Virus record (IMG/VR): IMGVR_UViG_3300006853_000021
Location: 1-52,215 of that record
Length of the DNA: 52,215 nucleotides
Strand: one strand, 5' to 3'
Source of the DNA: a virus
Notes under the pieces: generated by a model
Databases searched by the model: none
What the model saw: the letters and a program-made list of their open reading frames with translations, nothing else
Told to the model about the DNA's origin: nothing
Translations under genes and position numbers: made by a program
In this document: in pieces, positions 28,597 to 51,374 of the stretch
How positions within the stretch are numbered: the stretch's first letter is position 1
Layout of the letters: each line of letters opens with the position of its first letter

Positions 28597-28727
28597 CTCT
28601 TTATAAATTTACTTGTCGTGTTCTTAAACTTTTCATAGCATGCTACACAATATCCATTGATCAGTTGGCAAGCTGCCATCCGAATATTACAGTCTGGATT
28701 CTTGCACTTTTTACTGGCACATCCCAT
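28578..28727 (-). CDS. Small Cys-rich (zinc-binding-like) protein, 49 aa
   Basis: The ATG at 28727 opens a 49-codon frame, MGCASKKCKNPDC... ending KRWSDFW. Six Cys residues (3, 8, 13, 20, 27, 30), including a CVAC pair, suggest a small zinc knuckle. It fills the gap between the 190-residue gene (ends 28739) and the 305-residue gene (starts 28596), overlapping the latter by 19 bases in another frame. This overlap and the clean fit to the gap support translation. Function is unknown; it could be a structural chaperone or a small virion component. Confidence 0.62.
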   Translation of the reverse strand: MGCASKKCKNPDCNIRMAACQLINGYCVACYEKFKNTTSKFIKRWSDFW

Positions 28728-28738
28728 ACACTTGGTTT

Positions 28739-29311: not shown

Positions 29312-29841
29312 TACTGCTCGTTTGTTGATATTTGACCATCAGCCGAGATCCATATAGGCCGTATATTCGCTGGCTGAGCAATTTTCCATATAGGTCTGCG
29401 TACAGCTATTGCCCTATTCTTCATAATGCGAGTGATAGTCACTGCATCAGATTGGTTACCACCTATTACATGATAGGTCGTTGCATCTTCAGCAACATAT
29501 AATGCTACATGACCACCTTTCTCTCTTTTAAATACTACCACATCTCCGAGAGATGGTAAGGGGGATGGGTTACCAAATTTCTTCCAGCTAAGAGCCCATA
29601 ATGGGTCAGTAGGAATCTCTTTGTCAGCCCATTTAGCTACAATAGCCATAAAAAGTCCACACCAAGGAACACTATCCGCCGAATAGATCTTCTGCAGACC
29701 CAGTTCCCTGGCCCAAGATAGGATCTCTTCGTTGTCGGCATTACCAGGTTGCTCCTTGGTGCCATATAGCGCGAGAGCTACATCCAGCATCTTAGGACCC
29801 GGTTCATCCATCAACCATTGATATTTCTGCGGTAGTATCAT
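29311..29841 (-). CDS. Cell-wall hydrolase (NlpC/P60- or CHAP-like, TIGR02594 type), 176 aa
   Basis: The catalytic pattern is visible: DSVPWCGLFMAIVAKW with Cys 61, GDVVVFKREKGGHVALYV with His 111, and GGNQ at 127-130, followed by the arginine-rich strand AVRRPIW. This is the order seen in TIGR02594-type papain-fold peptidases/amidases. The N-terminal YQWLMDEPGPKMLDVALALYGTKEQPG also fits. Likely the endolysin that cleaves peptidoglycan for lysis, or a virion hydrolase given its place in the structural operon. First gene after the terminator at 29853-29888. No signal peptide; no holin recognised next to it. Confidence 0.82.
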   Translation of the reverse strand: MILPQKYQWLMDEPGPKMLDVALALYGTKEQPGNADNEEILSWARELGLQKIYSADSVPWCGLFMAIVAKWADKEIPTDPLWALSWKKFGNPSPLPSLGDVVVFKREKGGHVALYVAEDATTYHVIGGNQSDAVTITRIMKNRAIAVRRPIWKIAQPANIRPIWISADGQISTNEQ

Positions 29842-29852
29842 AGTCTTTTAGT

Positions 29853-29888
29853 AAAAAAGGCCAGGAGCGGAAACTCCTCCCCTGGCCT
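29853..29888 (-). terminator. Rho-independent terminator (minus strand)
   Basis: An 8-bp stem AGGCCAGG/CCTGGCCT with an inner GGAG/CTCC pairing, followed on the minus strand by about six T residues. It lies after the 373-residue gene and before the cell-wall hydrolase gene, closing the head block. Confidence 0.88.
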
Positions 29889-29916
29889 GAAACGGCATTA
29901 TGATGAAAAACCCCTC

Positions 29917-31038
29917 TTACGGTATCAATGTAGTTGTACTGGTTGTCGAAGTAGATGTAGTCGATGTAGTGGTAGTAGTTGTTGGATTAGTACCACTGAA
30001 ATCTTCAACGTCTCCCAGATACACTTCCAGTAAGGTCTCAAAGTCTGTACCTGTACCTGTAGGGAATGCCAGGATGATTGTTTGATCCTGAGGCACGCCC
30101 GGATTCCAGGTGTCCAGATACTCATCGTACGGATAGTACTTGATGTAGTATGTATCATAGTAGGTACCGGCTGTCACATAGCTTTGGAAAGCCTGGTTCC
30201 AGCTTTGGTACTTATAAAGCGATTTGAAATGACTTGTCTGGTAGCTGTAGAAATCCTTTTCCATCTGCGCGATTTCTGCCGAAGATCCAGTACCAAAGTC
30301 TGATCGCTGAACTACAGTAGAAGTAGCAATGATATCACATGCATCATTCACAATGAAGTCCTGTGTAGTTACCGGACCATTGATCACGAAAGCACGGAAC
30401 CACAGCCTGTCATACTCCCAGGGGTAAGCTTCCAGATCGCAAGGATTGCCATATACTGTCAGCGGCTTCTCAGTAATGTACATGACAGAGTTGTCACCTG
30501 TACCAAACCTGGAGAAGGTCAGGAACTGGGAGAGCATAGGATCTGCATTACCCTTAGCAGCAGCCTCATCTACGAAATTCTGTAATGCTGTACCTGATAC
30601 GTCCGTACAAGGATTTGCGCCACATTCGCAACAAGGAGTATCTATCACAAATGAACGGGTAAGACCATTGAAGAACCCAGTATCAATGTAGCTCGAATGT
30701 AGAACAAACGAGAAGGTTACCTGCTGGCTACACTGCAGATTCCAACCACTTATAGACTGGATCTGAGTTGGTATGTTTGAAACAGCTGTGATTTTATACC
30801 ACTCAATCACCTTGTTTGCAGCGATCTTGTCCGAAGTCTTGCTGCCCAGACCGGGAATAGTTTCAATTCTTCCCTCACGGATGTAGATGTACTTCGCAGC
30901 GGCAATATTACCTGCATTTGCTATAGTATAGTCAGGCAGGAATACTCCGATTTGTCCACCAGTAAGGTTCTGCGTAGAACCGCTGGATGCCAAGGTACCC
31001 GAAGTAGCAACAAAGAGTGACGTTAAAGAGTAATCCAT
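29917..31038 (-). CDS. Auxiliary capsid / head decoration protein candidate, 373 aa
   Basis: 373 residues, beta-rich, aromatic-rich C-terminal half (YYDTYYIKYYPYDEYLDTW, ~305-323), with a CCECGANPC patch (~135-143) and a Thr/Ser tail ending TTTLIP. It is the last gene of the head block, downstream of the capsid protein and two connector-type genes, and just before a terminator. In phi-crAss001 an auxiliary capsid protein is encoded in this neighbourhood, so that role is the best guess. The call is inference from position and composition, with no diagnostic motif. Confidence 0.52.
   Translation of the reverse strand: MDYSLTSLFVATSGTLASSGSTQNLTGGQIGVFLPDYTIANAGNIAAAKYIYIREGRIETIPGLGSKTSDKIAANKVIEWYKITAVSNIPTQIQSISGWNLQCSQQVTFSFVLHSSYIDTGFFNGLTRSFVIDTPCCECGANPCTDVSGTALQNFVDEAAAKGNADPMLSQFLTFSRFGTGDNSVMYITEKPLTVYGNPCDLEAYPWEYDRLWFRAFVINGPVTTQDFIVNDACDIIATSTVVQRSDFGTGSSAEIAQMEKDFYSYQTSHFKSLYKYQSWNQAFQSYVTAGTYYDTYYIKYYPYDEYLDTWNPGVPQDQTIILAFPTGTGTDFETLLEVYLGDVEDFSGTNPTTTTTTSTTSTSTTSTTTLIP
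29929..29982 (-). repeat. C-terminal Thr/Ser tract of 373-aa protein
   Basis: About 18 Thr/Ser codons just before the terminal LIP and stop. It is the only one of the five tracts located upstream of the hydrolase gene. Confidence 0.88.
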
Positions 31039-31054
31039 TTTCTATGATTTATTG

Positions 31055-31783
31055 TTATTCAGATGTCTTTATTCGTTGTTGGGTGAACTGCACTGCTGGT
31101 ACATTCTCTGTATCCATTGCCAGTTCCTCAATAGTAAAATTGAGGAGTTCATCTTCCAGATATTCGTTCAGTTCACAATCAGCATGAGCAGAAGCAGTAC
31201 CATCGAAATTCACATATCCTGGATAATCTATCTTCTGCGGATACCTAATGTATGAAACATATATGGTGTTGGGAGTAAAGGTTCCGTCAGTATAGATACC
31301 CAGTCTCATCCCTGAGATGGTGCAGAAGGTTTCCTCGTACTCGAACGAAGGTTTGTAATTGGAGTTGTTAAGAAGTGTTACAACATCAGCATGCTTTGCC
31401 AGATCGTTGTTTACATAGATGAGACGATTCTTACAATCGCCCTTATCTGCCACAACATAGCTGTCTACATAAAACATGTACTGAGGATCAAGATCTTCCA
31501 GATTACAGGTCCACATATGGAGCTTGTTATCATCCTCTATGAGAGGAAGGGGGTGTGCTCCAGGAACCTCTATCAGGATCTCGACATCCTCGTAACGTTT
31601 CTTAAAACTATCCAGTCCTAACCCCAATGTGTTGTTTGGACTGATCTTCGTTTTTACCAACTTTAGTTGGGCCTCGTTAAGGGCCAATATCTTATTCTCA
31701 AGCGGTATGATCTGATGATCGAGAGCCGCTACTTTATTGAGTTTTTGATCAATCTTGTACAGCAGGCTCTCTACAACTATCAT
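31055..31783 (-). CDS. Head-tail connector/virion protein, 242 aa
   Basis: 242 residues: an N-terminal coiled-coil-like segment (MIVVESLLYKIDQKLNKVAALDHQIIPLENKILALNEAQLKL) and a beta-rich body with TIYVSYIRYPQKIDYPGYVNFDG (~183-205). The C-terminus is acidic and helical (CELNEYLEDELLNFTIEELAM). The RYPxxI/ELxxYLxDEL pattern is one I associate with head-completion or ring proteins of crAss-like phages. Its ATG overlaps the stop of the 317-residue gene (TATGA). The exact ring identity cannot be fixed from sequence. Confidence 0.56.
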   Translation of the reverse strand: MIVVESLLYKIDQKLNKVAALDHQIIPLENKILALNEAQLKLVKTKISPNNTLGLGLDSFKKRYEDVEILIEVPGAHPLPLIEDDNKLHMWTCNLEDLDPQYMFYVDSYVVADKGDCKNRLIYVNNDLAKHADVVTLLNNSNYKPSFEYEETFCTISGMRLGIYTDGTFTPNTIYVSYIRYPQKIDYPGYVNFDGTASAHADCELNEYLEDELLNFTIEELAMDTENVPAVQFTQQRIKTSE

Positions 31784-32733
31784 ACTTCAGCTATCTTTTT
31801 GAGTTTTAATTTCCGCTCCAGATCCAGGAGATCTTCCTGATGCGCATCATCGAGCAAATGCTCTACCAGTTCTTCCTTATCTTTAAACAATTCCAGCTCT
31901 CCCTCATAAACTTTTCCACCTTGTTTGAGCCGGTAAATATGGTGTGTGAATGCCATCTCTACTACATCCTTAACATACAACACATCATCTTTGAGATTTG
32001 CATACACTGAGAACACTTTGATGGGATCTTGCCCTTTGAAAGGTCCGCTATCTGCGGATTGCTTCTTCAGGAATGTATCTACCATATTGTAGACAACTTC
32101 CTCACGGGTATCCTCGGTGACAGGTAGCCCCAGTAATCGGGCAACTTTACGACGCTTCTCCAGCGACCAACTATCAAACTTAATGATAGCATCATTGGAA
32201 TTTTTCTTCTTACGATAGAGTATCTCATTTTCCACATCCTCATCATTGATGAAGTATTGAGTGTCGTGAGGATACTCACCCCGCTCGTAAGCCTGCAGAC
32301 TGGAAGCTATTGTTGGGTGTGCCTTTAACCAGCAGTAGGTGATATATTGTAAAGGAACATCGAGATTGAATATATTATCTCCGTCGATCAGCTTTACAGG
32401 TTCCACCTTCTTATGTGAACCTTTGGACGTATAGTTGTAGTATGGTGACATTGGAGACAGATCAAGACCACTTTCATACTCCAGTTTCTTTCTAAGTTCT
32501 ATGATCCTATTCCTCTCGATGTCCCTCATTTTAGTATCAGTGATTCTATCGAGGTATTTGGCATCTGGATCAAGTCCTGTCCTGTACTTACCATTGAGCT
32601 CCCTATAAGGAAAGATCATCTTTACTGTACCAGGGATCCTACTCATTCCTTTCTCTCTCAGAGATTTCTCCATGGTCGGAAAGGCTGAACTAAAGTCCTT
32701 CGGTATCACGCTGATTTTACCGATTCTACCCAT
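31780..32733 (-). CDS. Conserved head-module protein, 317 aa
   Basis: 317 residues, basic and helical, with the phrase TDTKMRDIERNRIIELRKKLEYESGLDLSP around 65-95. The C-terminus (KEELVEHLLDDAHQEDLLDLERKLKLKK) looks like a charged helical hairpin. It follows the capsid gene after a 109-base gap containing an inverted repeat, and is coupled to the 242-residue gene. I recognise the MRxIERxRI...YYNYT region as conserved in crAss-like head modules; the function is not known to me. Confidence 0.6.
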   Translation of the reverse strand: MGRIGKISVIPKDFSSAFPTMEKSLREKGMSRIPGTVKMIFPYRELNGKYRTGLDPDAKYLDRITDTKMRDIERNRIIELRKKLEYESGLDLSPMSPYYNYTSKGSHKKVEPVKLIDGDNIFNLDVPLQYITYCWLKAHPTIASSLQAYERGEYPHDTQYFINDEDVENEILYRKKKNSNDAIIKFDSWSLEKRRKVARLLGLPVTEDTREEVVYNMVDTFLKKQSADSGPFKGQDPIKVFSVYANLKDDVLYVKDVVEMAFTHHIYRLKQGGKVYEGELELFKDKEELVEHLLDDAHQEDLLDLERKLKLKKIAEV

Positions 32734-32751
32734 TATTTAGTTGTTTTGTGC

Positions 32752-32794
32752 CCCTCAGCATGGTTGCGAGCCAATAGGTCTTTCACCCTGAGGG
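32752..32794 (-). promoter_or_regulatory. Inverted repeat between capsid gene and next gene
   Basis: The 7-bp arms CCCTCAG/CTGAGGG are separated by about 29 bases, in the 109-base gap after the capsid gene. No T-tract follows in either direction, so it is not a standard terminator. It could be an attenuating or mRNA-stabilising hairpin that lets the capsid gene be expressed more than its downstream neighbours. Confidence 0.45.
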
Positions 32795-32842
32795 ATGAAG
32801 AGACGGACAGCTTTCAATCAGTCCTCCTCCTCGTTTTGTATC

Positions 32843-34387
32843 TTAGAACTGAGGTACTTCCTCAATTACAACACATCTTGAAAGGTCTTCGATGAACACG
32901 TCGTAGCGGTCATCCATGAAGATGGTATAACCATCAAACATGTTGGCAGCTGAGTGTCCCTGAGAGCGGAAAGCGCCCAGGTGATGACGACGACCATCAA
33001 TATAACCCCAGGTCATTGATGGACGACCTTGCATGCGCACTTCACGAATGTTGTTGCGCAGCGTGCCATCTCCTTCTGGAGATACATCAAATACCAGGAA
33101 GAGTGGAGTTGATTTCTTGTTCTGGCCAAACTCCAGGTTAGATTGTGGCAGATCCAGTTCTTTTAAGTGAACCAGCTCTATTCTACCAGTCTCACGAGTT
33201 ACCATCGAGCTGAAGGCATAGTTCAAGGTAAGCTTCTGCTCTGCACCCTGAATAAAGCGTTCGTCAGCTATAATGGTCAGACCTGAGTTTAATGCGTCTT
33301 CCTTCAGAGCCTGATCGAATACATCGAAGCCAGCCTCATTGGTATAAATCTTCACACGACGATCCTTCACATCTACCCTACGATAGAACAAGTCTCCAAA
33401 TACTGCACGTAGGATGTTGGTGGAGAACTCACCACGATTATATTGAACCAGGTTGCCATTATTGCGCATACGATAGTACACGCCAGCAGATACCTTTTTA
33501 ATTTCTTGTTTGGCACCACGGGTACGCACTGTACCTGGCTTACCCCAGATCATCTTCTGTACCTTCAGATCCATCATCGCTTTACGCATCCAGAATTCGA
33601 TAAAGGGTTCCCAACGGATGTCATGACGGGTGACTGGCTTCTCATTGCGCTTGCCATTAATATATACCATCAGATCCAAAGGCATACCATTGCTATTGCG
33701 TAGCATGCGGTCATCTGCCCAACCAGTGATGGTGTGTTTGTAACCTACTGCAGATCCAAGTGATTCAAACATGGTAATCTTCTCAGCCATACGAGGCAGA
33801 CCCAGCAGATCTTCGTCGAACTCACCGATAGAGGCATTCACCAGAGTATACTCTATACCTGCCTGCAAATATGTTGGATCCACAAACTCCGTCTTGGGGT
33901 TGTTGGATATAAGTGCAAGGGTATAGAGGAAACCACGATTGGCTGGCTGAGGATCCTTAAGTACAACAAACTGAGGACCATAGATTTTATGCGGGGTAAT
34001 GATTGCGTTCTGGGTAAACTCGGCTGAGTCCATGATGATCCAGAACTCCTGACCATCTATACCAGGAGTGGTAAGATTGACGGTTTGAGTAGGAATCTCA
34101 GTAATCTTGGGGAATTTATAAGGTACTTCGATATCCCATTTCCACGCGTCTGAATTAGTGTTGATATAGAACGGTGTGGACTTGTTAATCATATCCAGAA
34201 AATCATTCGCATATAGCGAGCTCTGGGTATAAATGGATATGATCTTCTTGTCATAATCCGCCGGGTCTGTGGTGTGAAAGCTTTCCAGGTGGTTAGTGTC
34301 CGTAAGCTTACCGACAGCGCGTTTGTCCATCGAGGCAACTCGGGCATACGCAAACCCAGTAAATCCAGGTATTGTTTGTAAGGCCAT
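32843..34387 (-). CDS. Major capsid protein (HK97-fold, crAss-like), 514 aa
   Basis: 514 residues beginning MALQTIPGFTGFAYARVASMDKRAVGKL. The mixed alpha/beta composition, length and position after portal and scaffold-like genes match the major capsid protein of crAss-like phages. Visible stretches include YLQAGIEYTLVNASIGEFDEDLLGLPRM and EFWMRKAMMDLKVQKMIWGKPGTV (~265-290), which fit a long spine-helix-like region, and a basic segment VRMQGRPSMTWGYIDGRRHH near 445-465. The gene is free of the dispersed CTCTSAGAG palindrome that marks most of the window, consistent with strong codon or expression constraint. Confidence is high from synteny and length. Confidence 0.82.
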   Translation of the reverse strand: MALQTIPGFTGFAYARVASMDKRAVGKLTDTNHLESFHTTDPADYDKKIISIYTQSSLYANDFLDMINKSTPFYINTNSDAWKWDIEVPYKFPKITEIPTQTVNLTTPGIDGQEFWIIMDSAEFTQNAIITPHKIYGPQFVVLKDPQPANRGFLYTLALISNNPKTEFVDPTYLQAGIEYTLVNASIGEFDEDLLGLPRMAEKITMFESLGSAVGYKHTITGWADDRMLRNSNGMPLDLMVYINGKRNEKPVTRHDIRWEPFIEFWMRKAMMDLKVQKMIWGKPGTVRTRGAKQEIKKVSAGVYYRMRNNGNLVQYNRGEFSTNILRAVFGDLFYRRVDVKDRRVKIYTNEAGFDVFDQALKEDALNSGLTIIADERFIQGAEQKLTLNYAFSSMVTRETGRIELVHLKELDLPQSNLEFGQNKKSTPLFLVFDVSPEGDGTLRNNIREVRMQGRPSMTWGYIDGRRHHLGAFRSQGHSAANMFDGYTIFMDDRYDVFIEDLSRCVVIEEVPQF

Positions 34388-34411
34388 TTTACTTTACAGT
34401 TTTTGTTTATC

Positions 34412-35728
34412 TTATGATTGGAACCAACTCTTTGGCTCCGAATTTTTCTTTGGCTGATCTCCTGATTTTATGGCGGTTCTTTTCAATCCCTTGAATAGCT
34501 CGTTGGTTTCTTTGCTTACAGCTTTTTTAGCAAGCTTAGATAGTGTCGGATCTTCTCTGAGAAGCTGCATGAGCATAGCAAGTTTGATCTTCATCTCGTG
34601 ATTCTCCGGGCGATTCAGATCCAGAATATCCTTGTCGAACTCAGTTAGTGTCTGTCGATCCTTCGTTTCATAACGCTCCTGAGTAATATATGCATAAGTA
34701 CGTTCTGCAAAGTTTTTGTCTATGGGTATACCATCAAACTCCTTGGTACGTATCTTATCATTGAGTATTCTGGAGACATTGGTGATGTACTCACTACGGA
34801 TCATCTGTTTGCGTTTATTCTCCTGATCCTTATTAGCTTCAGCTTCCTGGACAGCTTGTTCCTCGCGTTGAACAAGGATACGCTGTGCTTCAGTAGCTTC
34901 ATCAGCCAGATCACTATAATTCTTGAGTTGAGTAATCCTTTTTTCAATATACTCAGTTGAGCGACCTTCTGTACGATAAAGTTCGCGCACCACTCTTTCC
35001 TGATTACCCTCATCAGAAAGGTCAAGGTTCTTGACAGTTTCTATCTTGGCATAACGATTCAGGTAGTCGAGTGGGTTAACCCCTTTTACAAAAACACTGT
35101 TGAACATTTCTCTGTAATCATCTCCAAAACGTCCGAGGAACTTATTGATAACAGCGGTAGCATGTTTCTGACCTTCGTACTGAAATCTTTCCAGTAACTC
35201 CTCCGGAGTTTCTATCTGGACTTCCTCTTCTCCTTCATCCAGTGTGATTATACCATGAGTCACTAACTCTTTAGCGATTGTAGAATAGACAGATTCTTCC
35301 TCTTCTCCTTCGGTAGATTGTTCTTCGATCCCTTCCTCAGTTTTGTCTGGTGCAGACTCTAAGGTTTTTTGAGCTCCGACTTTCTTTTCCTTTTTCTCAA
35401 CCGGCTTTTCCTCCTCTTCTTCCTCTTCATCTTCATTATCAGTAGTGAATGAGGTGAACATATCCTCCTCACTTAGCTCATTGGGTATAGCAACTGCCTC
35501 TTTAATAGGCTTCTTTTCCTTGATCTTTAACTTGTCTTCCTTGCTTTCGATTTCATCTTCAGATTCATCTTCGTCTTCTTCCTGCTTTTTCTTGGAGGAT
35601 TTCTTTCGTGGGGCGAGTGTAATATCATCAGGATTAGAGTTCAGAAAATTTTCACCGGCAATGACTTCTTCTGTGGAAAGGATACCCAATTCTCCTGCGG
35701 AGAGGGCGAACTCCTGTCTTTCCGCCAT
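34412..35728 (-). CDS. Acidic scaffold-like protein, 438 aa
   Basis: 438 residues. The N-terminal ~150 are extremely Glu/Asp/Lys-rich (runs of E near 100-110 and 130-145) and look disordered. The rest is helical (QRVVRELYRTEGRSTEYIEKRITQLKNYSDLADEATEAQRILVQREEQAVQEAEANKDQ). The position between portal and capsid genes and the acidic coiled-coil character fit a capsid scaffold or capsid-internal protein. It is preceded by an 86-base leader and starts with the leader AACAACTAAAT before ATG. No protease motif is seen. Confidence 0.62.
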   Translation of the reverse strand: MAERQEFALSAGELGILSTEEVIAGENFLNSNPDDITLAPRKKSSKKKQEEDEDESEDEIESKEDKLKIKEKKPIKEAVAIPNELSEEDMFTSFTTDNEDEEEEEEEKPVEKKEKKVGAQKTLESAPDKTEEGIEEQSTEGEEEESVYSTIAKELVTHGIITLDEGEEEVQIETPEELLERFQYEGQKHATAVINKFLGRFGDDYREMFNSVFVKGVNPLDYLNRYAKIETVKNLDLSDEGNQERVVRELYRTEGRSTEYIEKRITQLKNYSDLADEATEAQRILVQREEQAVQEAEANKDQENKRKQMIRSEYITNVSRILNDKIRTKEFDGIPIDKNFAERTYAYITQERYETKDRQTLTEFDKDILDLNRPENHEMKIKLAMLMQLLREDPTLSKLAKKAVSKETNELFKGLKRTAIKSGDQPKKNSEPKSWFQS

Positions 35729-35814
35729 ATTTAGTTGTTTTTGATATGCGTAAAATTATAGTTCGTCAGTGTGTTACGCGAGTGTTAAGTATGATTTTTT
35801 TGCTCAGTATAGCG

Positions 35815-38385
35815 TTATGTTTTCTTTTTGGTCTTGACTTGCTGCCTTTTGAGAGCTCTATCGGCCTTTTTGTCGGCCATCTGGGCACGTAGCTTCTCTT
35901 TCTCAAGTTGGATCTTCCTAAGTTCAAGTGAGATATAATCCTGGTTCTCTCTCTGTTTCTGATCGAGCTGTTGGCGTTTCAATTCCAGTTCCCTATCAGC
36001 AGTAGCCTGATCTATACGTCTATCATCTATCTCAGAGAGAGTGGTAGAGTTGTCCGGAGTACGGTCAGCTCCTCTTGCTGCGGCACGGATAAGCTCAACC
36101 TCTCTGTCATTCATACGATCAAGCTCTTTCTGCTGTGCTTCGAACTGGCGATCAATCTCCTGTTGTTGCATCTGTGCCTGTAGATTAGCCTCAGCTATAG
36201 CCTGCTGATTTTGCATTTCCTGCTGTTGCATTTGCATCTGTTGCTGTTGCATTGCCTCCATCTTATCTCTGAGACTCTTGAAGATCTGTCTCATCTGTCG
36301 TACAGAATTAGTGCTGTATAGTACAGAGATTTCATATGGTGTAGCACCATTCTGCAACATTGGTTGGGCAAGCTGACGGAATTCCTGGAACTCCTGTACA
36401 TCCCTTGCGCGTGATGTAGCAAATACTTTGAGATCGCGCATGGAGATATCCTCTCCATTTACGCGTATGAAACCTTGTTCTCCTTCCGTATTTACATATG
36501 AGATAGTAGAATATGGTTTCTTGGTTTCTATATACTGCACTGCATCAAGCATTGCCTGATACAGATCATTCATGACATATTCGTGCTGTGCAAAATAGGG
36601 TTCTGTCTGAGCATAGCTCTGAGAGAGCGCTGCATTGGTGCCTGTTGCAGTTTGTGTGGCAGCCACCCCACCCGTGCGCTCGCGCGTAATACCTACAAGC
36701 TCCCATGCCTCTATCTTGAGTTGTTGAGCCAGTGTGTATCTGGATTGGATCTCACTGGTACGTGTAAGATCTACATTCTTAAACATATTAAAGTTGGAAG
36801 GACTCTTGAGATTCTCTGGCGAATCATCAATCATAACAATACCACGTTTACGTGCTTCCAATTCCCAGATATCTAGCGCATCTTGTCCATCACCATCCTT
36901 TGGTGTTGGTACGTGCCGGATAGATCCTTGGTATACATTACCAATTTCCTTTTCCAGGAGTTGGTACAATTGATTAAGGCAGATGTTATACAATACCTGG
37001 TAAGGTTTCAACATATCCACCAGGCTCTTTGCTTCATTAACGTTCTTGATTTCATGCACCACACCTATTATAGGACAGTGATCGAGCAGCTCGTAGGGTT
37101 CTACCTTGTATACATCCGAACCAATTTTATATCCCTTGTACCACTGATTCACATAATTCCATTCGATAGATATTTCACCGGGTACCTTACGATAATTCTC
37201 ATCCACCATTGTACTGAACTCCTCACCACTCTCATCCACATATGTAAGTTGGCCCACTTTCTTTTTGCTCAGCCAATATGCCTGCACAACAACATATTTA
37301 TTCCCGAACGTGTTGACATTCGAAGACAGACCAAGCCAATTGCCCAAAGAATCCGTATTCTCTTTCAGTTGAGATTCGATGAATAATCGTTGCTGAACTA
37401 TATAAGGGGAGTAAGTATCATATTTGATCGAATCCCAACCACTGGTTGTAGGATTCTCGAAGTTGGACTCTCTCGGAGAGAAGAGCGAGAGCTCGCGCAC
37501 ACCTTTTCGCAGATGATCTATTTCATCTTTAGTCAGATCAAAGCGCTCAATGATCTCAGATAGTTCCATTACATGTACTGTACCTGCAGCGAACGCATCC
37601 TTATGAATATATTTTTTATCGGGAAGTGTAAGATACCATACGTTCTTTGGGTTCAGGTTCTCCACACCCAGACCAAGCTTGCTGTTATTTTCAAACACAT
37701 GAGCGAATTCCCTGGAGCTTATCAACAGATCGCGCATGCAATCTTCAGATAACTCCTTCATGTTGAGTTCTACCTTCAAAGCTTCGATTACATGATTGCC
37801 CCACTTTTCAGCAGTAGAAGTGTAATCCGTAAGATATTCCTGAACCTGCTCCAGCGACATCTGTTGAAGTTGTTCCTCTTCCACCTCTTCTCCTGCCATC
37901 GCCAGTTTCGATCTTATTTGCTGCATAGCATTTTCCAGGATGTAATTCTGCATTACCTCTGTCATATACTGCAGTTGTTCATTCTTGGATTCCTCATCCA
38001 TGGCTTTTATCCTTACCTGATCGGGTCGCTTGGACAACTCACCGACCATTGTATTAAGTGGAGGGTTGAGTATTGGATAATGTTTTACATGTGGAGGCAG
38101 TTCGACTTCCTTGAGAAGTGTCTCTGCGAAAGATTGCATATCAGATGGGGCCTCTTCTATATAAAAATCTCTGGGTCCTATGATGCCCTTCACCAGATTA
38201 TAGTTACGCACAAACGTATCTTTGGCCTTTATGAATTGTGAATAAGCTACATTGGCAAAGTAGTCCATATTGGACTTGACCCAGTTCTTGCCACGCTTCT
38301 CCTTTTCAGTAACAAATTGATCCGGGTAGATATTCCACCTGGCCCAGTCCATATTCTGGTACTCCGAATGAATGATGATAGGCAT
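35815..38385 (-). CDS. Portal protein, 856 aa
   Basis: 856 residues, immediately after the terminase gene (they share one base). The N-terminal part shows HYPILNPPLNTMVGELSKRPDQVRIKA (~100-126), a pattern I associate with crAss-like portals. The middle has helical crown/stem-type segments. The C-terminal ~150 residues form a Gln-rich coiled coil (runs of Q and M near 690-720), then a very basic end KTKKKT. Expected role: a dodecameric channel at the capsid vertex for DNA packaging and ejection. Longer than most podovirus portals, in line with crAss-like ones. Confidence 0.82.
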   Translation of the reverse strand: MPIIIHSEYQNMDWARWNIYPDQFVTEKEKRGKNWVKSNMDYFANVAYSQFIKAKDTFVRNYNLVKGIIGPRDFYIEEAPSDMQSFAETLLKEVELPPHVKHYPILNPPLNTMVGELSKRPDQVRIKAMDEESKNEQLQYMTEVMQNYILENAMQQIRSKLAMAGEEVEEEQLQQMSLEQVQEYLTDYTSTAEKWGNHVIEALKVELNMKELSEDCMRDLLISSREFAHVFENNSKLGLGVENLNPKNVWYLTLPDKKYIHKDAFAAGTVHVMELSEIIERFDLTKDEIDHLRKGVRELSLFSPRESNFENPTTSGWDSIKYDTYSPYIVQQRLFIESQLKENTDSLGNWLGLSSNVNTFGNKYVVVQAYWLSKKKVGQLTYVDESGEEFSTMVDENYRKVPGEISIEWNYVNQWYKGYKIGSDVYKVEPYELLDHCPIIGVVHEIKNVNEAKSLVDMLKPYQVLYNICLNQLYQLLEKEIGNVYQGSIRHVPTPKDGDGQDALDIWELEARKRGIVMIDDSPENLKSPSNFNMFKNVDLTRTSEIQSRYTLAQQLKIEAWELVGITRERTGGVAATQTATGTNAALSQSYAQTEPYFAQHEYVMNDLYQAMLDAVQYIETKKPYSTISYVNTEGEQGFIRVNGEDISMRDLKVFATSRARDVQEFQEFRQLAQPMLQNGATPYEISVLYSTNSVRQMRQIFKSLRDKMEAMQQQQMQMQQQEMQNQQAIAEANLQAQMQQQEIDRQFEAQQKELDRMNDREVELIRAAARGADRTPDNSTTLSEIDDRRIDQATADRELELKRQQLDQKQRENQDYISLELRKIQLEKEKLRAQMADKKADRALKRQQVKTKKKT

Positions 38386-40478
38386 TATATAAAGAGTTTA
38401 GACCCATGTGATTTCTTCATGGCGTTTGTCCTGGCAGACATATCTATCACCGATCGTGCTGTATTGCGCTTGTTACCGAAATATGCTTTTAACCTCGGAT
38501 CTATCTTCGTATCAGATACATAAAACTGCGCATTCAGGTGATCAGCCATTACTACTGCCAGTTCAGCTGCCACAAGCCGGTCAAAATTACCTTCGTCGAA
38601 GTTAAATCTAATAATTTCTTCCAACAGCATGGAATCAAATACCTTGGTAATACCTAGAACTTCGCGTATGATAGATCCATTTTCATCCTTTTCGATGAGG
38701 ATAGGCTCATCAAGATACTTTTTGAATAAGCCATCAAGATGCCTTCTCACCCTCTCTGAGGCACGTGAGATTCCGTAATCCCTATAAACTCTGGAGTTAG
38801 GTGAAACTTCTCTTAGCCATGAAGGTTGGGGAGCCAGGTAGATAGCTGCATCTCCTTTCTTGATCATATAGTCAATGAAACTATACTCATCGTTCTCTAC
38901 TAATGTATACGCATTGTAATACTTGATCAGCAGACGTGCCTGTTCATTCCATACTTCCTTGCTGCCAGGTCTGGCCACATAAGAAGCTACCAGCATATTT
39001 TGGTACTTCTCCCCCTGTATATCATGTATGCGCTTGAAGATATATACAGCACCTAATGACTCACTCCATTCAGAATTCTCCTGACGATAAGGGTCAACGC
39101 CAGCAGTATAAAGCCCAAATGGTGGAACCTCCTCTATCGGAAATTCCCAGATAACTACCGGAGCATCTGTATTCTGATCCTTAATTGGATATTGGGTAAT
39201 GGGAACCTTATCCGTGAAGTCATGTCTTACCTTCTCACCATCGTGATATAACCATACAAGTTTGCCGGTCTTCTCCAGCCCTCTGAGTCTTGCTTGCTGA
39301 GAACGAGCCGCATCTGTATTAAAATCATTCTTAGTGATAACTAAGAACGAATCGCTGGGATTGAGTGGCTGATATGCCTTGAATTTAAGAATGGTTTTCA
39401 GGTTACCGCTCTTGAGTGCTCGCTGATAGGCAGGTTCCCACCACTCTTTAAGAGCTCGTTCTTCATTAGCTACCCTGATCTTAACGTGGGATATTGCTCT
39501 TTCTTCTATACCGAGATATTCGGATAAAAACTTCTCTTCTTTAAAAGCCATCTTGGCCTTCAATGCATTAACAAATCTGCCTATCCTTCCCAACCCTTCG
39601 TAAGTATCCTGGAAACTTAGCATGTTATAAGAGTCCGGATTACGGAATATTTCAGCTGCTTCTGCGCCTACTTCCATGTCACCGCCTGTACCTGCCAGCA
39701 TAGCCAGGCACGATGGTTTCGAACTATCGCCTTCGCCTGACCACCAGGCACCTTCACTATCTTTTGTACATGCTATAACATTGGGGAAAGCCCCTATCTC
39801 ATCTATCAGATGAAAGCCCGGACGGGTACCTTGAGCTGCCATCGTTTTTGACCCCATCTCGTAGTTACGAATTTTTATCGAAGACAAGGATGATTTATCA
39901 GAAGCGGTGTTGGTAGCCTTATCTTTCCAGCCTGCGGTGATCTCCCGTTTCCAGTCATTAGTAAGGCGCTGCTTCCGGAAGATGGGATGTATATTAATAA
40001 GACCATCTTCTATTTTATCGGTGACCAGTTTAATGAATGTCCCCTCGCCTGAGCTGATCACTGCTTCGGACTTATCGAACATAGTATATAGCCATCCAGC
40101 ACGGGAGGCAGCCATTACAGATTTTCCGAAGTCACGGGCCCCTACCAGGATATAGAATTTGCCCTGGTCTTCACAAGCAGTGAAGTCGCCGGCAATGTCC
40201 CATTCTATGTCTCTGAGAAATGGCGTACAGGTGACGCGTACTTTTCTGCTGGAGCGGGCATCTTCTATATAAGTAACTATCTTCCAGTATACAGTATGCC
40301 AATACAACCACCCGGAAACAGACACTTCGCCCAGCTTAAATCCATATTTTAGTCGGTCGGTTTCTTTGTTCCAATAAGCTTTGAAGGCACGCATCGCCCG
40401 GGCATCCTGTGGATCGTACACCGGCTCTTTCTGGTTGGGGAACCAGATATTGACTGTGTCCTGCCTATACTCTTGCAT
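38385..40478 (-). CDS. terL: Terminase large subunit (packaging ATPase/nuclease), 697 aa
   Basis: Walker A GARDFGKS at ~113-120, Walker B-like FHLIDEIGAF at ~222-231 with the catalytic DE pair, and a nuclease-domain start AGVDPYRQENSEWSES around 465 with the expected Asp. Together these identify the two-domain packaging motor that pumps DNA through the portal and cuts it. The length of 697 residues is typical of crAss-like TerL. It abuts the 98-residue gene upstream and the portal gene downstream at single-base junctions. Confidence 0.92.
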   Translation of the reverse strand: MQEYRQDTVNIWFPNQKEPVYDPQDARAMRAFKAYWNKETDRLKYGFKLGEVSVSGWLYWHTVYWKIVTYIEDARSSRKVRVTCTPFLRDIEWDIAGDFTACEDQGKFYILVGARDFGKSVMAASRAGWLYTMFDKSEAVISSGEGTFIKLVTDKIEDGLINIHPIFRKQRLTNDWKREITAGWKDKATNTASDKSSLSSIKIRNYEMGSKTMAAQGTRPGFHLIDEIGAFPNVIACTKDSEGAWWSGEGDSSKPSCLAMLAGTGGDMEVGAEAAEIFRNPDSYNMLSFQDTYEGLGRIGRFVNALKAKMAFKEEKFLSEYLGIEERAISHVKIRVANEERALKEWWEPAYQRALKSGNLKTILKFKAYQPLNPSDSFLVITKNDFNTDAARSQQARLRGLEKTGKLVWLYHDGEKVRHDFTDKVPITQYPIKDQNTDAPVVIWEFPIEEVPPFGLYTAGVDPYRQENSEWSESLGAVYIFKRIHDIQGEKYQNMLVASYVARPGSKEVWNEQARLLIKYYNAYTLVENDEYSFIDYMIKKGDAAIYLAPQPSWLREVSPNSRVYRDYGISRASERVRRHLDGLFKKYLDEPILIEKDENGSIIREVLGITKVFDSMLLEEIIRFNFDEGNFDRLVAAELAVVMADHLNAQFYVSDTKIDPRLKAYFGNKRNTARSVIDMSARTNAMKKSHGSKLFI

Positions 40479-40774
40479 CAGATATCTTTAGTTTCAAGAG
40501 GGGAAAGTTCGTGATTTCCACGAACAGTAGATTGCTTGGCCTCTTTCTTTTCACGCAGTTCGTCGATTGCTGCCAGGATATCTATATAGTCTTTCAGTGT
40601 ATCCCGGATACACTTGATTTGTTGCTCTATAGTTGCCGTCAGTTTACCTGCAGTTATTCTATCTCTGAGATCGGACACAGGATTTTCGTCGCAGTACTTT
40701 CGGAGTTCTGATGCCTTGGCTTCGAGCCACTCCAGATCCTGACCTATATAACTATTCTTCTTCCTGGTAGCCAT
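40478..40774 (-). CDS. Small helical protein before terminase, 98 aa (possible small terminase)
   Basis: The ATG at 40774 is preferred over the TTG two codons earlier. The product, MATRKKNSYIGQDLEWLEAKASELRKYCDEN... followed by DRITAGKLTATIEQQIKCIRDTLKDYIDILAAIDELREKKEA, is helical. Being directly upstream of terL with a one-base junction it may be a small terminase, but no DNA-binding motif is clear. It overlaps the 104-residue gene by 23 bases. Confidence 0.6.
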   Translation of the reverse strand: MATRKKNSYIGQDLEWLEAKASELRKYCDENPVSDLRDRITAGKLTATIEQQIKCIRDTLKDYIDILAAIDELREKKEAKQSTVRGNHELSPLETKDI

Positions 40775-41066
40775 GAACAATCATTTGTATTTCGTTATTG
40801 ATAAATTCAGAAACCCGCTTTTGAAACTTCGTGCGCACTTTGTGTGGTATATCTTCTCCAAGCTGAGCTTCAAAATAATGAACGAGTCCTCTGGTAGTAT
40901 CCCAATTGGCAGATGCTTTACACTTATACTCAGGTATCTCCTTCATTGAGAGGATCCTTTCTACATATTCCCGAACCCAATCGTGCTCTGCATAGATAGT
41001 ATGTTGTATTGATCTGCGCTCGTTCAGCCAATCGGGCGACGAGAATACATAATCCTCGTGAGTCAT
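40752..41066 (-). CDS. Hypothetical protein, 104 aa
   Basis: 104 residues, MTHEDYVFSSPDWLNERRSIQHTI..., charged and probably alpha-helical, ending in acidic GYQEEE. Not recognised. The ATG at 41066 follows the leader ACTAAAAGACTGTT, similar to the leader of the hydrolase gene. It belongs to the small-gene run leading into terL and overlaps the next gene's start, so it is probably co-translated with the packaging genes. Confidence 0.6.
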   Translation of the reverse strand: MTHEDYVFSSPDWLNERRSIQHTIYAEHDWVREYVERILSMKEIPEYKCKASANWDTTRGLVHYFEAQLGEDIPHKVRTKFQKRVSEFINNEIQMIVHGYQEEE

Positions 41067-41079
41067 AACAGTCTTTTAG

Positions 41080-41268
41080 TTATATAAGATCACGGATATT
41101 CATATCCGTAATTCTGAAAACAATCTTTTCCGGTTCTTCCACAGGGAAGATATGCAATGTCCGGGTTTCGTCATCAACAACAATATCTACCCGCTCATAT
41201 TCGCTTTTCAGCTCTATGATGATCCTTTCCAAATCTTCTATCTTAACATCATTCACTCGTATTGTCAT
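41080..41268 (-). CDS. Hypothetical acidic protein, 62 aa
   Basis: 62 residues, MTIRVNDVKIEDLERIIIELKSEYERVDIVVDDETRTLHIFPVEEPEKIVFRI... with a strand-helix-strand layout. Not recognised. The start codon lies inside the 3' end of the zinc-ribbon gene (20-base overlap), which supports co-translation. The stop is 13 bases before the next gene's ATG. Confidence 0.6.
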   Translation of the reverse strand: MTIRVNDVKIEDLERIIIELKSEYERVDIVVDDETRTLHIFPVEEPEKIVFRITDMNIRDLI

Positions 41269-41566
41269 CTTCTTTGAGTTTTTCTTCCATCCGTCTCTCC
41301 TCTTCCTCTGAGAGAGTGGGCATCCATTTCTTAATGGGGCATTCGCAAGACATACATCTGGTCTTCAGCTCCAGATTACACCCACATATTGTACAATGAA
41401 CATCTGGGCGGAAACTTTTATAATTGTTGAACTTTTTCTGGTGATCCGAGTTGTATGAACATCCCCTGCAAATGTTCAGTCTCTGCGTGGCTACTATCTC
41501 TACTGACTCCTTCACAAACAGACTGTTCCATGTTCCCTCCAGCAACCCCTTTATATCTAACTTCAT
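41249..41566 (-). CDS. Zinc-ribbon protein, 105 aa
   Basis: 105 residues with Cys pairs CRGCSYN (~33-36), CTICGCNL (~57-61) and CMSCECPIKKW (~69-75), a zinc-ribbon layout common in small phage proteins found beside packaging genes. The acidic C-terminus LSEEEERRMEEKLKEDD carries a copy of the dispersed palindrome. Its first ~50 codons overlap the 3' end of the 159-residue frame in a different phase. Function unknown; nucleic-acid or protein binding is likely. Confidence 0.68.
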   Translation of the reverse strand: MKLDIKGLLEGTWNSLFVKESVEIVATQRLNICRGCSYNSDHQKKFNNYKSFRPDVHCTICGCNLELKTRCMSCECPIKKWMPTLSEEEERRMEEKLKEDDNTSE

Positions 41567-41897
41567 AATCCATTTTTGATCTTAGAAACTCAATCGTTTC
41601 TCTAATACTTTTGAGTTTGGCATTGCAGCTGCTGATCTTGAGCTCACTCATATCTGTCTCACGGTTAAGTCTATCCTCAATTTTCTTCTCCAGATCAATT
41701 AACCTTGCGATATGTCTACGGCACTTTCCGGGAGAGGCATACCACTTACCGAACCAGGTCATTTCCATATTTCTTGAAGTGCGAGCAGCTCTGAGAATAT
41801 CCTTGAACTGGAAACTCACAATCTTTCTGACTATCTCCTTATCCATTCCCAGATCAGTGGCCACCTTTTGCGTCAGCTCTTCATTAAATTTATCCAT
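41418..41897 (-). CDS. HU/IHF-like DNA-binding protein candidate, 159 aa
   Basis: The first ~60 residues, ELTQKVATDLGMDKEIVRKIVSFQFKDIL ... EMTWFGKWYASP, follow the HU/IHF plan: helix, turn, helix, then a GFGxF-like strand start (here WFGKW). The rest is helical with Lys/Arg. IHF-like proteins are known in crAss-like phages, which supports the guess, but the beta-arms are not obvious. The last ~50 codons overlap the zinc-ribbon gene in another frame. Its ATG overlaps the stop of the 106-residue gene. Confidence 0.58.
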   Translation of the reverse strand: MDKFNEELTQKVATDLGMDKEIVRKIVSFQFKDILRAARTSRNMEMTWFGKWYASPGKCRRHIARLIDLEKKIEDRLNRETDMSELKISSCNAKLKSIRETIEFLRSKMDYEVRYKGVAGGNMEQSVCEGVSRDSSHAETEHLQGMFIQLGSPEKVQQL

Positions 41898-42210
41898 CTT
41901 CCAGGCTTATTTGCAAACTTATTTTATCCTCAAAGTTCAACTCCACTGCAGGGTTCACTCTCAAAAAGTCATCCTGCTTTATGAGCCACCCTCCTCTGAG
42001 AAGGCGTGACCTCATATTCCCAACACTGGCCTGCGAACTACGTGCCACCTTAATAAAATCTGTTATCGTCCCACCTGTTGCTATATGTGCAAGCAGGTCT
42101 ATCTCCATCTTCCTTAAGCTACCCCCATTCAATACATTCAGTACTGTCAGATAAGTTACCGCTTTTTCCTTTGGAGTTTTATACTTCTTCCTGATCTTCT
42201 GTACCATCAT
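41890..42210 (-). CDS. Winged-helix-like small regulator candidate, 106 aa
   Basis: 106 residues: a basic N-terminus MMVQKIRKKYKTPKEKAVTYLTVLNVLNGGSLRKMEIDLLAHIATGG, then TDFIKVARSSQASVGNMRSRLLRGGWL (a possible recognition helix, ~53-77) and a strand-rich end. This looks like a helix-turn-helix or winged-helix protein. It lies downstream of two tandem terminators and opens the run leading to the packaging genes, so a role in late-gene control is possible but unproven. Confidence 0.6.
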   Translation of the reverse strand: MMVQKIRKKYKTPKEKAVTYLTVLNVLNGGSLRKMEIDLLAHIATGGTITDFIKVARSSQASVGNMRSRLLRGGWLIKQDDFLRVNPAVELNFEDKISLQISLEDG

Positions 42211-47262: not shown

Positions 47263-47472
47263 ATGAGCAAAATATTAACTGCTAAGAACATTATGCAGGA
47301 TCTCAGTGTCCGTGAGTTGAAAATACTGCAGCGCTGGATAACTGATGAAATAGCTATCAAAGAACGTAATCAGGAGCTCTCTGAGAGTAAGAAGATTCCT
47401 ATTGAGGCTGAAAGCAGAGCTGACAGAGCAGGGAAACAAACGGCCAAAACGCTTACCAATTATGGACAATAA
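47263..47472 (+). CDS. Hypothetical helical protein, 69 aa
   Basis: 69 residues: MSKILTAKNIMQDLSVRELKILQRWITDEIAIKERNQELSESKK..., largely helical. A perfect CTCTGAGAG copy encodes ELSES. Its last codons overlap the start of the NADAR gene. Not recognised. Confidence 0.6.
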   Translation: MSKILTAKNIMQDLSVRELKILQRWITDEIAIKERNQELSESKKIPIEAESRADRAGKQTAKTLTNYGQ

Positions 47473-47935
47473 AAATAATACGGACTGGTCTGAGCATCGT
47501 CCTGCTGAGTTCAAGTACAACGGGAGATGGATACATAACTGGTTTAGTAATATGCTCTCTTCTCCAATAACCATTGATGGAATCCGGTACAACAGCGTTG
47601 AGAACTATTACCAGGCTATGAAATCTCTTGATCCGGATGATTGGGAGAGAGTAGCTATTATGTCTCCTTCCGGATCTAAGAAATGGGGCAGAAAGACTAA
47701 GCTGCGTCCTGACTGGGAGCTTGTGAAAAGGGACGTGATGAAAAAGGCACTATTGGAGAAGTTTTCACACGAACCCTGGACTATAATGCTCAAAGCCACA
47801 GGAATTGAGGTCATTGTTGAGTGGAATAACTGGGGTGATAGAATATGGGGTGTTGAAATCAGTGATAATAAAGGTCAAAACCTACTGGGTAAATTGCTTA
47901 TGGAGATCAGGGAGGATCTCAAACATGGAAAATAA
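47462..47935 (+). CDS. NADAR-domain protein (ADP-ribosyl/NAD-type N-glycosidase family), 157 aa
   Basis: Start at ATG 47462, overlapping the previous stop. The NADAR (YbiA/DUF1768-type) signature is seen in order: WFSN with PITIDG (27-40), SVENYYQAMKSL (45-56), WNNWGDRIWGV (121-131) and NLLGKLLMEIREDL (140-153). Family knowledge: NADAR proteins hydrolyse N-glycosidic bonds in NAD/riboflavin-type metabolites, and some remove ADP-ribose from guanine in DNA, reversing DarT1-type toxins. In a phage early region a counter-defence or nucleotide-modification role is the natural guess. The domain covers nearly the whole protein. Confidence 0.84.
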   Translation: MDNKNNTDWSEHRPAEFKYNGRWIHNWFSNMLSSPITIDGIRYNSVENYYQAMKSLDPDDWERVAIMSPSGSKKWGRKTKLRPDWELVKRDVMKKALLEKFSHEPWTIMLKATGIEVIVEWNNWGDRIWGVEISDNKGQNLLGKLLMEIREDLKHGK

Positions 47936-48255: not shown

Positions 48256-48513
48256 ATGAGAAAACTATTAATCTATCTGGTGCTTTGTACTGGTCTGGCT
48301 GGCTGTGCACGATCATGCGAAGGATGTAATCGTGACCTTCAGATGGGATCTCGTACCTATGAAGTAATTATGTATAGTGGCGGCGATACAGTATTCTATG
48401 ACAAATTCAATGGAATTGTTAATAACTCTGAGAATAGTGATGGTTGTTACTATCATAAAGGAGATACACTTATTGAAGTGAGCGGAGACTATATAATCAA
48501 ATCTGTAGATTAA
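48256..48513 (+). CDS. Small lipoprotein, 85 aa
   Basis: A lipobox signal peptide: MRKLLIYLVLCTGLAGC with the modified Cys at 17. The short Cys-rich mature region CARSCEGCNRDLQMGSRTYEVIMYSGGD... has Cys 17, 21, 24 and a later Cys near 63. Phage lipoproteins of this kind often act on the host envelope, for example as superinfection exclusion or receptor masking; that is inference here. It follows a hairpin-T element and precedes the two-helix membrane protein by 16 bases. Confidence 0.75.
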   Translation: MRKLLIYLVLCTGLAGCARSCEGCNRDLQMGSRTYEVIMYSGGDTVFYDKFNGIVNNSENSDGCYYHKGDTLIEVSGDYIIKSVD

Positions 48514-49708: not shown

Positions 49709-49769
49709 ATTCGCTTTCGCATAAAGCCCTGGCTACTCACGCCAGGAAAGGGATAATGATTAATGGCAC

Positions 49770-49803
49770 AGCCCGGAGATTTCGCATCTCGCGGGCTTTG
49801 TTT
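49770..49803 (+). terminator. Rho-independent terminator
   Basis: AGCCCG-GAGAT-loop-ATCTC-GCGGGCT followed by TTTGTTT. It closes the DUF4177-like unit. Confidence 0.82.
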
Positions 49804-49927: not shown

Positions 49928-50032
49928 ATGACTATAAGTGTGATCGCAGCTGCGGTAGCTATTGCGATATTTGCTGCTGTGGGTATAGTAGCCCTAGGTG
50001 ACAAGAAATCTGTTGATAAAGAAAAAAACTGA
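49928..50032 (+). CDS. Single-helix membrane miniprotein, 34 aa
   Basis: The ATG at 49928 opens MTISVIAAAVAIAIFAAVGI, then VALGDKK and a charged end EKN, stop at 50032. One transmembrane helix (~4-23) and a short charged tail. It follows the typical leader ACTAAATTAT and ends 5 bases before the next gene. Function unknown; holin-, inhibitor- or anchor-like roles are all possible. Confidence 0.55.
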   Translation: MTISVIAAAVAIAIFAAVGIVALGDKKSVDKEKN

Positions 50033-50037: not shown

Positions 50038-50502
50038 ATGTCTAAACATTACACTCTCGAAGAATTACTTAATATGACTCAGGTGATGAAACGTAAAGGA
50101 TGGTCTGCTATCTATATTAAGGAGCAGGGAGTATTTAAAGTGTCTAAGCGATATCTCCACATCTTAATGGATCCTGGTATGTTCCAGGAAATATTTATAG
50201 AGCGTGCTGGCAGGAGCTATATAAATCGCGGCATTCCTATGAGTAAACATAATATGTTTACAGCAGATTTGCGCGTAGGTGCAATGTTATATATTGATGA
50301 TGAGTATTATGTGGTACTTTCTATCGGATGTGCAATGCATCGTGGTGGTAATTTGCAAGCTGCGCGCGATTTTGCAATAGTAGCTCATGTATCAATAGAA
50401 GACTTAGTGCTTTGCAACCTTGAGCTCCACCCTGCTCCTGATAGTATTGATGCCATAATGTATTTGTCAAAAATAGACGTTCACAAAACACATTTAAACT
50501 GA
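50038..50502 (+). CDS. Hypothetical protein, 154 aa (paralogue of next gene)
   Basis: 154 residues: N-terminal helices (MSKHYTLEELLNMTQVMKRKGWSAIYIKEQGVFKVSKRYL), then a beta-rich domain FTADLRVGAMLYIDDEYYVVLSIGCAMHRGGNLQAARDFAIV ... EDLVLCNLELH (~74-132). That domain aligns by eye with the N-terminal domain of the next gene. Not recognised. Confidence 0.6.
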   Translation: MSKHYTLEELLNMTQVMKRKGWSAIYIKEQGVFKVSKRYLHILMDPGMFQEIFIERAGRSYINRGIPMSKHNMFTADLRVGAMLYIDDEYYVVLSIGCAMHRGGNLQAARDFAIVAHVSIEDLVLCNLELHPAPDSIDAIMYLSKIDVHKTHLN

Positions 50503-50506
50503 TTAT

Positions 50507-51082
50507 ATGGCAAAAACCGAGACATTGAATCCAAAAAAGAGATATACTGCACGTAGCCTTAAGCAAGGTCAACTACTTGAGATAGATGGTATAAATTATG
50601 TAGTACTGATAATAGGTGCTATGTGGGGGAAGGGTACATTCACCCGTAGAGGTGAACAATTGCTCCCTGCTCATAACCGTGCTATTATAGCACCTTATGA
50701 TGACCCCGGTACTAACCTCAACCTGGTATTACATAATCATGACGCCGAAGAGGCACAGGATGATCGAGATGTCATGGAGCAATGGAGCAAGTTTGATCTC
50801 TCTGAGGAGCAAAGAGAGCGAATTCTAAATACACCTATCAATGTTACTGAATATGGTGATCGCACATATTTGCAGAACCTTCTGTTTAGTGTGCACTCCC
50901 ATCCGCCTGAGGGTTTGGGTATCATATACAGTGAGGTAGATCTTGAGCGTGTGTGTGATCATATGATCAATTACCTGGAATCCAAAAAGGTGCATGATAT
51001 CAGTCCCGAAACACTTGCTTTTTTCAATGGTAAAATAGAAGCGTTCGAAGAAATGAAAGCATTTTTCTCACATAAATCGTAA
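50507..51082 (+). CDS. Hypothetical protein, 191 aa (paralogue of previous gene)
   Basis: 191 residues: an N-terminal beta domain (YTARSLKQGQLLEIDGINYVVLIIGAMWGKGTFTRRGEQLLPAHNRAIIAPYDDPGTNLNLVLHN, ~12-77) like that of the preceding gene. A helical part follows with DLSEEQRERILNTPINV and a C-terminal helix (LAFFNGKIEAFEEMKAFFSHKS). Four bases after the previous stop; the next gene begins 4 bases downstream. Not recognised. Confidence 0.6.
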   Translation: MAKTETLNPKKRYTARSLKQGQLLEIDGINYVVLIIGAMWGKGTFTRRGEQLLPAHNRAIIAPYDDPGTNLNLVLHNHDAEEAQDDRDVMEQWSKFDLSEEQRERILNTPINVTEYGDRTYLQNLLFSVHSHPPEGLGIIYSEVDLERVCDHMINYLESKKVHDISPETLAFFNGKIEAFEEMKAFFSHKS

Positions 51083-51086: not shown

Positions 51087-51374
51087 ATGCAAGGGTTCAC
51101 AATACTACTGACTATATTTCTTGTCCTGGGCTTTGCATCGCTTGCTCTTTTAGAATACAAGATCAGAAAGGCACGGAAGTTACGCGATAAACTCGTTGAG
51201 CTTGCAAGGAGAGGACCTGAAGTATTTGGCAGTAGTGAGAAGTTTGACAGGTGGTTAGGTAGCGAGATCCAAGCCTTGGGTGGCGTGAAGCCTATAACTA
51301 TGATCCACACTGTAGAGGATGTGGATAAGCTACTAACCATACTGGGGAGGATAGAGTATGGCGTGTATTCTTAA
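51087..51374 (+). CDS. Membrane-anchored protein with Xre/MbcA/ParS antitoxin toxin-binding domain, 95 aa
   Basis: Residues ~3-22 form one transmembrane helix (FTILLTIFLVLGFASLALLE), followed by a basic helix (KIRKARKLRDKLVELARRG). Residues ~42-94 carry VFGSSEKFDRWLGSEIQALGGVKPITMIHTVEDVDKLLTILGRIEYGVYS. The WL-x-alLGG-xP and LGRIEYGV signatures are those of the DUF2384 (MbcA/ParS/Xre C-terminal) domain. In bacteria it binds RES- or MbcT-type NAD-degrading toxins. The usual N-terminal helix-turn-helix is missing and replaced by the membrane anchor. No toxin gene is adjacent. Inferred role: a decoy antitoxin that neutralises a host toxin at the membrane. Confidence 0.72.
   Translation: MQGFTILLTIFLVLGFASLALLEYKIRKARKLRDKLVELARRGPEVFGSSEKFDRWLGSEIQALGGVKPITMIHTVEDVDKLLTILGRIEYGVYS

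Follow-up and report, generated by a model that had tools for sequence, protein, structure and literature searches.

A tailed-phage gene that joins a predicted membrane helix to the toxin-binding domain of RES-Xre antitoxins

The gene, its operon and its phage

The gene 51087-51374 lies in the right arm of the window, by which we mean the whole stretch of 52,215 nucleotides that was analysed (positions 1 to 52,215 of IMGVR_UViG_3300006853_000021). It is the last gene of an operon of four (beginning at 49928, 50038, 50507, and 51087) that has a hairpin on either side. The features of this region are:

47462..47935, + strand: NADAR (PF08719) protein of the upstream operon (PF08719 E 1.6e-24; PHROG 1017)
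49769..49799, + strand: terminator-like hairpin upstream of the operon (fold z -3.5)
49928..50032, + strand: first gene of the operon, for a small peptide (about 34 aa) predicted to lie in the membrane (hydropathy 2.92)
50038..50502, + strand: protein of 154 aa in the same operon, no family assigned, paralogue of the next gene
50507..51082, + strand: protein of 191 aa in the same operon, no family assigned, 4 bases upstream of the gene under study
51087..51374, + strand: the gene under study, encoding 95 aa with a predicted transmembrane helix and a PF09722 domain (from the list of open reading frames, profile matches, and hydropathy)
51096..51152, + strand: predicted transmembrane helix, residues 4-22, followed by the basic stretch KIRKARKLRDK (Kyte-Doolittle; part of helix 2-47 in the structure model)
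51219..51362, + strand: PF09722 domain, the C-terminal toxin-binding domain of Xre/MbcA/ParS (profile match; fold like that of the antitoxins in 8gug, 6gw6/9r35, 6d0h, 6fkg, and 8qnl)
51342..51371, + strand: C-terminal LGRIEYGVYS motif, end of the last helix and tail (conservation in RES-linked antitoxins; analogy to NatR helix 7, PMC11535050)
51504..51540, + strand: terminator-like hairpin after the gene, AGCCCGC...GCGGGCT followed by a T-run (-18.4 kcal/mol, z -5.5)

The start codon lies four bases past the stop of the preceding gene, a spacing also found among the neighbouring genes, there is no in-frame ATG between it and the PF09722 domain, and the codon usage fits the phage in this single frame (+0.15 bits/codon) while the other five frames are negative. 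The membrane part of the protein is therefore probably translated. Taken by part, the codon signal is clear in the domain (+0.21) and weak in the hydrophobic part alone (+0.03). The 3' end of the reading frame corresponds exactly to the natural C-terminus of the antitoxin family.

The second and third genes of the operon are paralogous (35% over 81 aa, E 3e-6). No relatives of either were found in the viral contigs or phage records, and none of the gene at 44936 in the viral contigs. The two hairpins at 49769 and 51504 have a near-identical AGCCCG...CGGGCT stem with U-rich tails and apparently represent a recurrent terminator of the phage. The small genes of the right arm include several that encode membrane proteins (48530, 49928, 51557, and 52176) and one for a probable lipoprotein (48256-48513; MRKLLIYLVLCTGLAGC, lipobox-like). 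The NADAR gene is located about 3.2 kb upstream on the same strand, and the theme that it would have in common with an antitoxin of the RES-Xre type is ADP-ribose metabolism. Its product also matches the PADLOC candidate model PDC-M42C (2.7e-11). NADARs take ADP-ribose off guanine, and a role in phages has been suggested but is unproven; a phage NADAR that was tested did not rescue cells from DarT1 (PMC11125620). A profile search for RES toxin genes (PF08808) in the window, in a second contig from this virus (73.8 kb), and in a relative (20.7 kb) found none, in agreement with the sequence-only reading that no RES toxin adjoins the gene.

The terminase and portal proteins of the window match PHROG head-and-packaging families (phrog_6681, E 7.6e-70, and phrog_6547, E 4.8e-92, respectively). 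The 73.8 kb contig, IMGVR_UViG_3300050509_000509, is identical to the window (100%) in the compared stretches, window positions 1-3874 and 28388-39685. It ends within the terminase gene, which continues unbroken across that point in the window, and the right arm, in which 51087-51374 lies outside the overlap, thus belongs to the same phage. On a contig of the same virus (L004) we also found a ThiF/E1-like gene (4867-5568, E 2e-18) and a full RecA gene (9870-10880, E 5.9e-81), and near these a PD-(D/E)XK-like gene (DUF3799) and a uracil-DNA-glycosylase-like gene. Among isolated phages, the most similar terminase is that of the Leptolyngbya phage Lbo-JY46, which has a cyanobacterial host (35% identity); the terminases of crAss-like phages and of Bacteroides, Flavobacterium, and Cellulophaga phages are also similar (about 27%). 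Judged from the kin of the PF09722 domain, the host is likely a member of the Bacteroidota.

An antitoxin domain behind a predicted membrane helix

The C-terminal ~53 residues had been read as carrying the DUF2384/PF09722 signature, and the profile searches bear this out. PF09722 matches residues 45-92 (E 2.8e-11, 43.7 bits against a cut-off of 24.5) over profile positions 4-51 of 51, and the NCBIfam family NF049845 'RES/Xre antitoxin' matches residues 35-95 (E 3.6e-16) over profile positions 52-112 of 112. Only the C-terminal half of NF049845 is matched, so that the score of 59 bits stays below the full-length cut-off of 90, as expected from the missing N-terminus. Antitoxin homology thus starts near residue 35. 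The AlphaFold2 model (mean pLDDT 88.8) comprises a continuous helix from residue 2 to 47 and helices 50-57, 69-72, and 76-90. In a Foldseek search its only credible PDB matches are antitoxins of RES toxins, namely VPA0769 (8gug), which is the best match, XrePp (6gw6, 9r35), ParS (6d0h), MbcA (6fkg), and NatR (8qnl). The probability is 1.00 for 8gug, 6gw6, 9r35, and 6d0h, with TM-scores of 0.5-0.6 of the query length; the top E-values (1.7e-3 to 0.05) are weak because the domain is short. The C-terminal domain and its fold are therefore common to the phage protein and the RES-Xre antitoxins, including the Xre of P. putida, and the closest of these antitoxins also end in LGRIEYGV(Y/F)S.

For a measure of conservation we used 75 antitoxins with an adjacent RES toxin gene. 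R88 is found in 74 of these, and G92 and V93 are found in all. The phage protein keeps the consensus at W56, L64, P69, G87, R88, I89, E90, G92, V93, and S95, and has thus retained most of the strongly conserved positions, above all W56, P69, R88, E90, G92, and V93. The one departure is D78, where all 75 RES-linked antitoxins have a glycine. Aspartate is present in the same column in VPA0769, which has been solved bound to its toxin, and in the Pseudomonas and Alginatibacterium orphans described below. In the NatR-NatT complex, NatR inserts its C-terminal helix into the NAD-binding cavity (PMC11535050), and GndX has been modelled likewise, with the C-terminal antitoxin helix in the NAD cavity (PMC12457610). 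By analogy to NatR, the intact LGRIEYGVYS tail may enter the active site of a toxin.

The phage protein differs from the RES-Xre antitoxins in what precedes this domain, in lacking an adjoining RES gene, and in being encoded by a tailed phage. An N-terminal Xre-type helix-turn-helix (HTH) is absent according to both the NF049845 profile and the hydropathy, and residues 1-34 instead consist of a hydrophobic helix and a basic stretch. Residues 4-22 have a mean Kyte-Doolittle hydropathy of 2.59 over 19 residues, with basic residues thereafter (YKIRKARKLRDK), and the replacement of the HTH by a transmembrane helix, as had been proposed from the sequence, is accordingly upheld as a prediction. From the hydropathy and the flanking basic residues we predict a single-pass inner-membrane protein, whose PF09722 domain would, because of these basic residues and the positive-inside rule, be exposed on the cytoplasmic side. 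The value of the anchor may be that it stabilises the domain or that it holds the domain away from DNA-bound complexes.

Relatives in bacteria, plasmids and phages

The comparison covered 80 bacterial homologues that were fetched, 395 genomes of the phylum of one Bacteroidota genome, and 398 of the phylum of a Pseudomonas genome, the short members being read. PF09722 is present in 107 of the 395 Bacteroidota genomes. Among the first 98 proteins examined, RES adjoins the antitoxin in 75, normally within about 20 bases downstream. No N-terminal membrane anchor was seen in apparently intact proteins among the ~140 PF09722 proteins extracted and read. One protein with a hydrophobic start (L091) was rejected as having the same architecture; it adjoins a 47-aa RES remnant and belongs to a degenerate module.

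The absence of the HTH is not special in itself. Orphans of 60-90 aa that consist of the domain alone and have no RES gene nearby recur in Bacteroidota (L089, L090), Pseudomonas (L013, L042), Alginatibacterium (L033), other Pseudomonadota, and on the plasmid pKF715A, and the domain without an HTH is also met in proteins of other phages, so that this part of the sequence-only reading cannot be kept. Several of them have an aspartate at the position of D78, as in the phage protein; unlike the phage protein, none of those named has a membrane helix. By bit score, the phage protein is closest to the Bacteroidota orphans L090 and L089 (70-72 aa), which are 69% identical to each other. A RES toxin was not detected in the two genomes that hold them (G264 and G300, respectively), which may be incomplete. 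G300 contains a second, broken copy 5 kb away. Because the genomes of the closest orphans are without a detectable RES, a PF09722 domain is not by itself proof of a RES target. A 56-column tree of the domain points to independent losses of the HTH, but it does not show where the phage copy came from.

The domain is rare in viral collections, and five queries against 50,697 phage records gave no convincing match to it. The tblastn match in Arthrobacter phage Atuin (E 0.01) falls within a very large helicase gene (coordinates 32692-42033) and is a chance match. MT836610 was also discarded as kin: it is an unverified scaffold, found with an invented consensus probe, and its HTH-less PF09722 reading frame has no membrane helix. 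The IMG/VR contigs contain one canonical Xre-RES pair, which is complete and located on a viral contig with tail genes (L007, IMGVR_UViG_3300037346_000514). A structure search of viral models (BFVD) revealed several small proteins of uncultured phages with a PF09722-like fold (A0A6J7XBF0, 73 aa; A0A6J5P0S5, 95 aa; A0A6J5LGC4, 75 aa; A0A6J5PX87, 57 aa), of which A0A6J5P0S5 aligns over 95 columns; with 15-18% identity, these are compared to the phage protein by predicted fold. A second contig or record that combines the transmembrane helix with PF09722 was not found in the searches of viral contigs and phage records. This failure to find a relative of like architecture leaves selection across phages unsupported, which counts against the explanation proposed below.

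Proposed neutralisation of a RES toxin of the host, and rival explanations

We tentatively regard the neutralisation of a host RES toxin as the best single explanation for the gene. The phage would make a protein that crosses the inner membrane once and exposes the RES-binding domain to the cytoplasm. During infection this domain would dock on a RES-type NAD+ phosphorylase of the host, with its last helix and tail (LGRIEYGVYS) plugging the NAD+ site of the toxin as NatR does to NatT. Because the anchor replaces the HTH, the toxin would be neutralised and held at the membrane while its operator is left unoccupied by the phage protein. From the domain and its context we infer both the toxin binding and a benefit to the phage. 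That an HTH-free domain can bind the toxin is suggested by the solved ParT-ParS complex, in which the ParS chain has 72 aa and is labelled a fragment (6d0h), and a 2:2 Xre-RES complex that does not bind DNA has been described as still neutralising the toxin (PMC12204516). The frequency of PF09722 in the surveyed Bacteroidota genomes, and of adjoining RES genes among the proteins examined, also speaks for this explanation, as targets would be common, and so does the NADAR gene on the same strand. Against it stand the HTH-less orphans that persist in genomes without a detected RES, as the domain may have other partners, and D78, although the aspartate of the toxin-bound VPA0769 softens the latter point. 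In addition, we found no demonstrated anti-phage role of RES toxins in the literature consulted. More than 50 phages were unaffected by NatT of P. aeruginosa, and the authors of the NatRT study argue against an anti-phage role (PMC11535050).

The main rival is the binding of another partner. The PF09722 fold might have been repurposed as a small module, tethered to the membrane, on which some phage or host protein docks or dimerises, and RES toxins would then play no part; we consider this somewhat unlikely. Such a change of use would fit the orphans L090 and L089 among the closest relatives by bit score, the repeated loss of the HTH, and the loss of the invariant glycine at D78, and the other membrane peptide and the two unassigned proteins of the operon could be the partners. 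However, the C-terminal plug motif is fully conserved, and a general scaffold would not need such a motif; the missing RES genes of the orphans' possibly incomplete genomes are, moreover, weak evidence. In a separate rival explanation, the phage protein would capture the host Xre or the Xre-RES complex via the shared domain and remove it from its operator, so that the expression of the host module is altered and the toxin is not simply neutralised. In the 4:2 complex RES is placed between Xre dimers and DNA binding depends on the assembly (PMC12204516), so that an HTH-less domain held at the membrane would be expected to break it. Such interference is rather improbable, as derepression of a toxin operon would normally harm a lytic phage.

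There are two further explanations. The gene might be a relic of a captured host antitoxin with a non-functional hydrophobic part, or its start might be wrong, and it is true that the same architecture was not met elsewhere and that the hydrophobic part has a weak codon signal. The reading frame is open, though, with a start spaced like those of the neighbours, no later in-frame ATG before the domain, a clear codon signal in the domain, and the natural end of the family, all of which makes decay improbable. It is very improbable that the protein belongs to a toxin-antitoxin pair of the phage, with the RES gene in a part of the phage genome that was not sequenced. The window is a fragment, RES pairs on phages have been reported (PMC9503650), and L007 carries one, but RES usually comes within about 20 bases after its antitoxin, whereas the gene is here followed by a terminator-like hairpin and an unrelated gene, and no RES gene was found in the window or the overlapping 73.8 kb contig.

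Neutralisation of a RES toxin would place the protein beside the phage mimics and NADase inhibitors (Gp145 against DarT, Dmd, and Nip against SpbK), with which it shares the proposed role of a small phage protein binding a host toxin or NADase, whereas the sequences and targets are unrelated. A phage antitoxin mimic of 77 aa is known to block DarT (PMC11481870), Nip counters the SpbK NADase, and counter-defence genes are often clustered (PMC11984713). Gp145, Dmd, and Nip are not described as membrane-anchored, and none is aimed at RES toxins as far as the literature consulted shows. The suggested counter-defence would be of a new form in one part only: an antitoxin domain moved to the membrane by fusion to a predicted anchor was not found described before, but phage antitoxin mimics as such are established (PMC11481870). 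As a whole, the sequence-only interpretation is partly supported, its structural side also by the modelled fold of the domain.

RES-Xre modules are among the widespread NAD-depleting toxin systems, and the sole direct test cited of a part in phage defence, that of NatT, was negative. A phage that has kept the toxin-binding domain and dispensed with the operator-binding part suggests that, somewhere, infections may be affected by RES toxins. It is possible, if doubtful, that the protein is a membrane-tethered decoy for RES-type NAD+ phosphorylases, and it would then be the first inhibitor of these toxins known from a phage. If so, RES-Xre modules would act against phages, and some phages would carry linked counter-measures around NAD and ADP-ribose, here a NADAR protein and the decoy.
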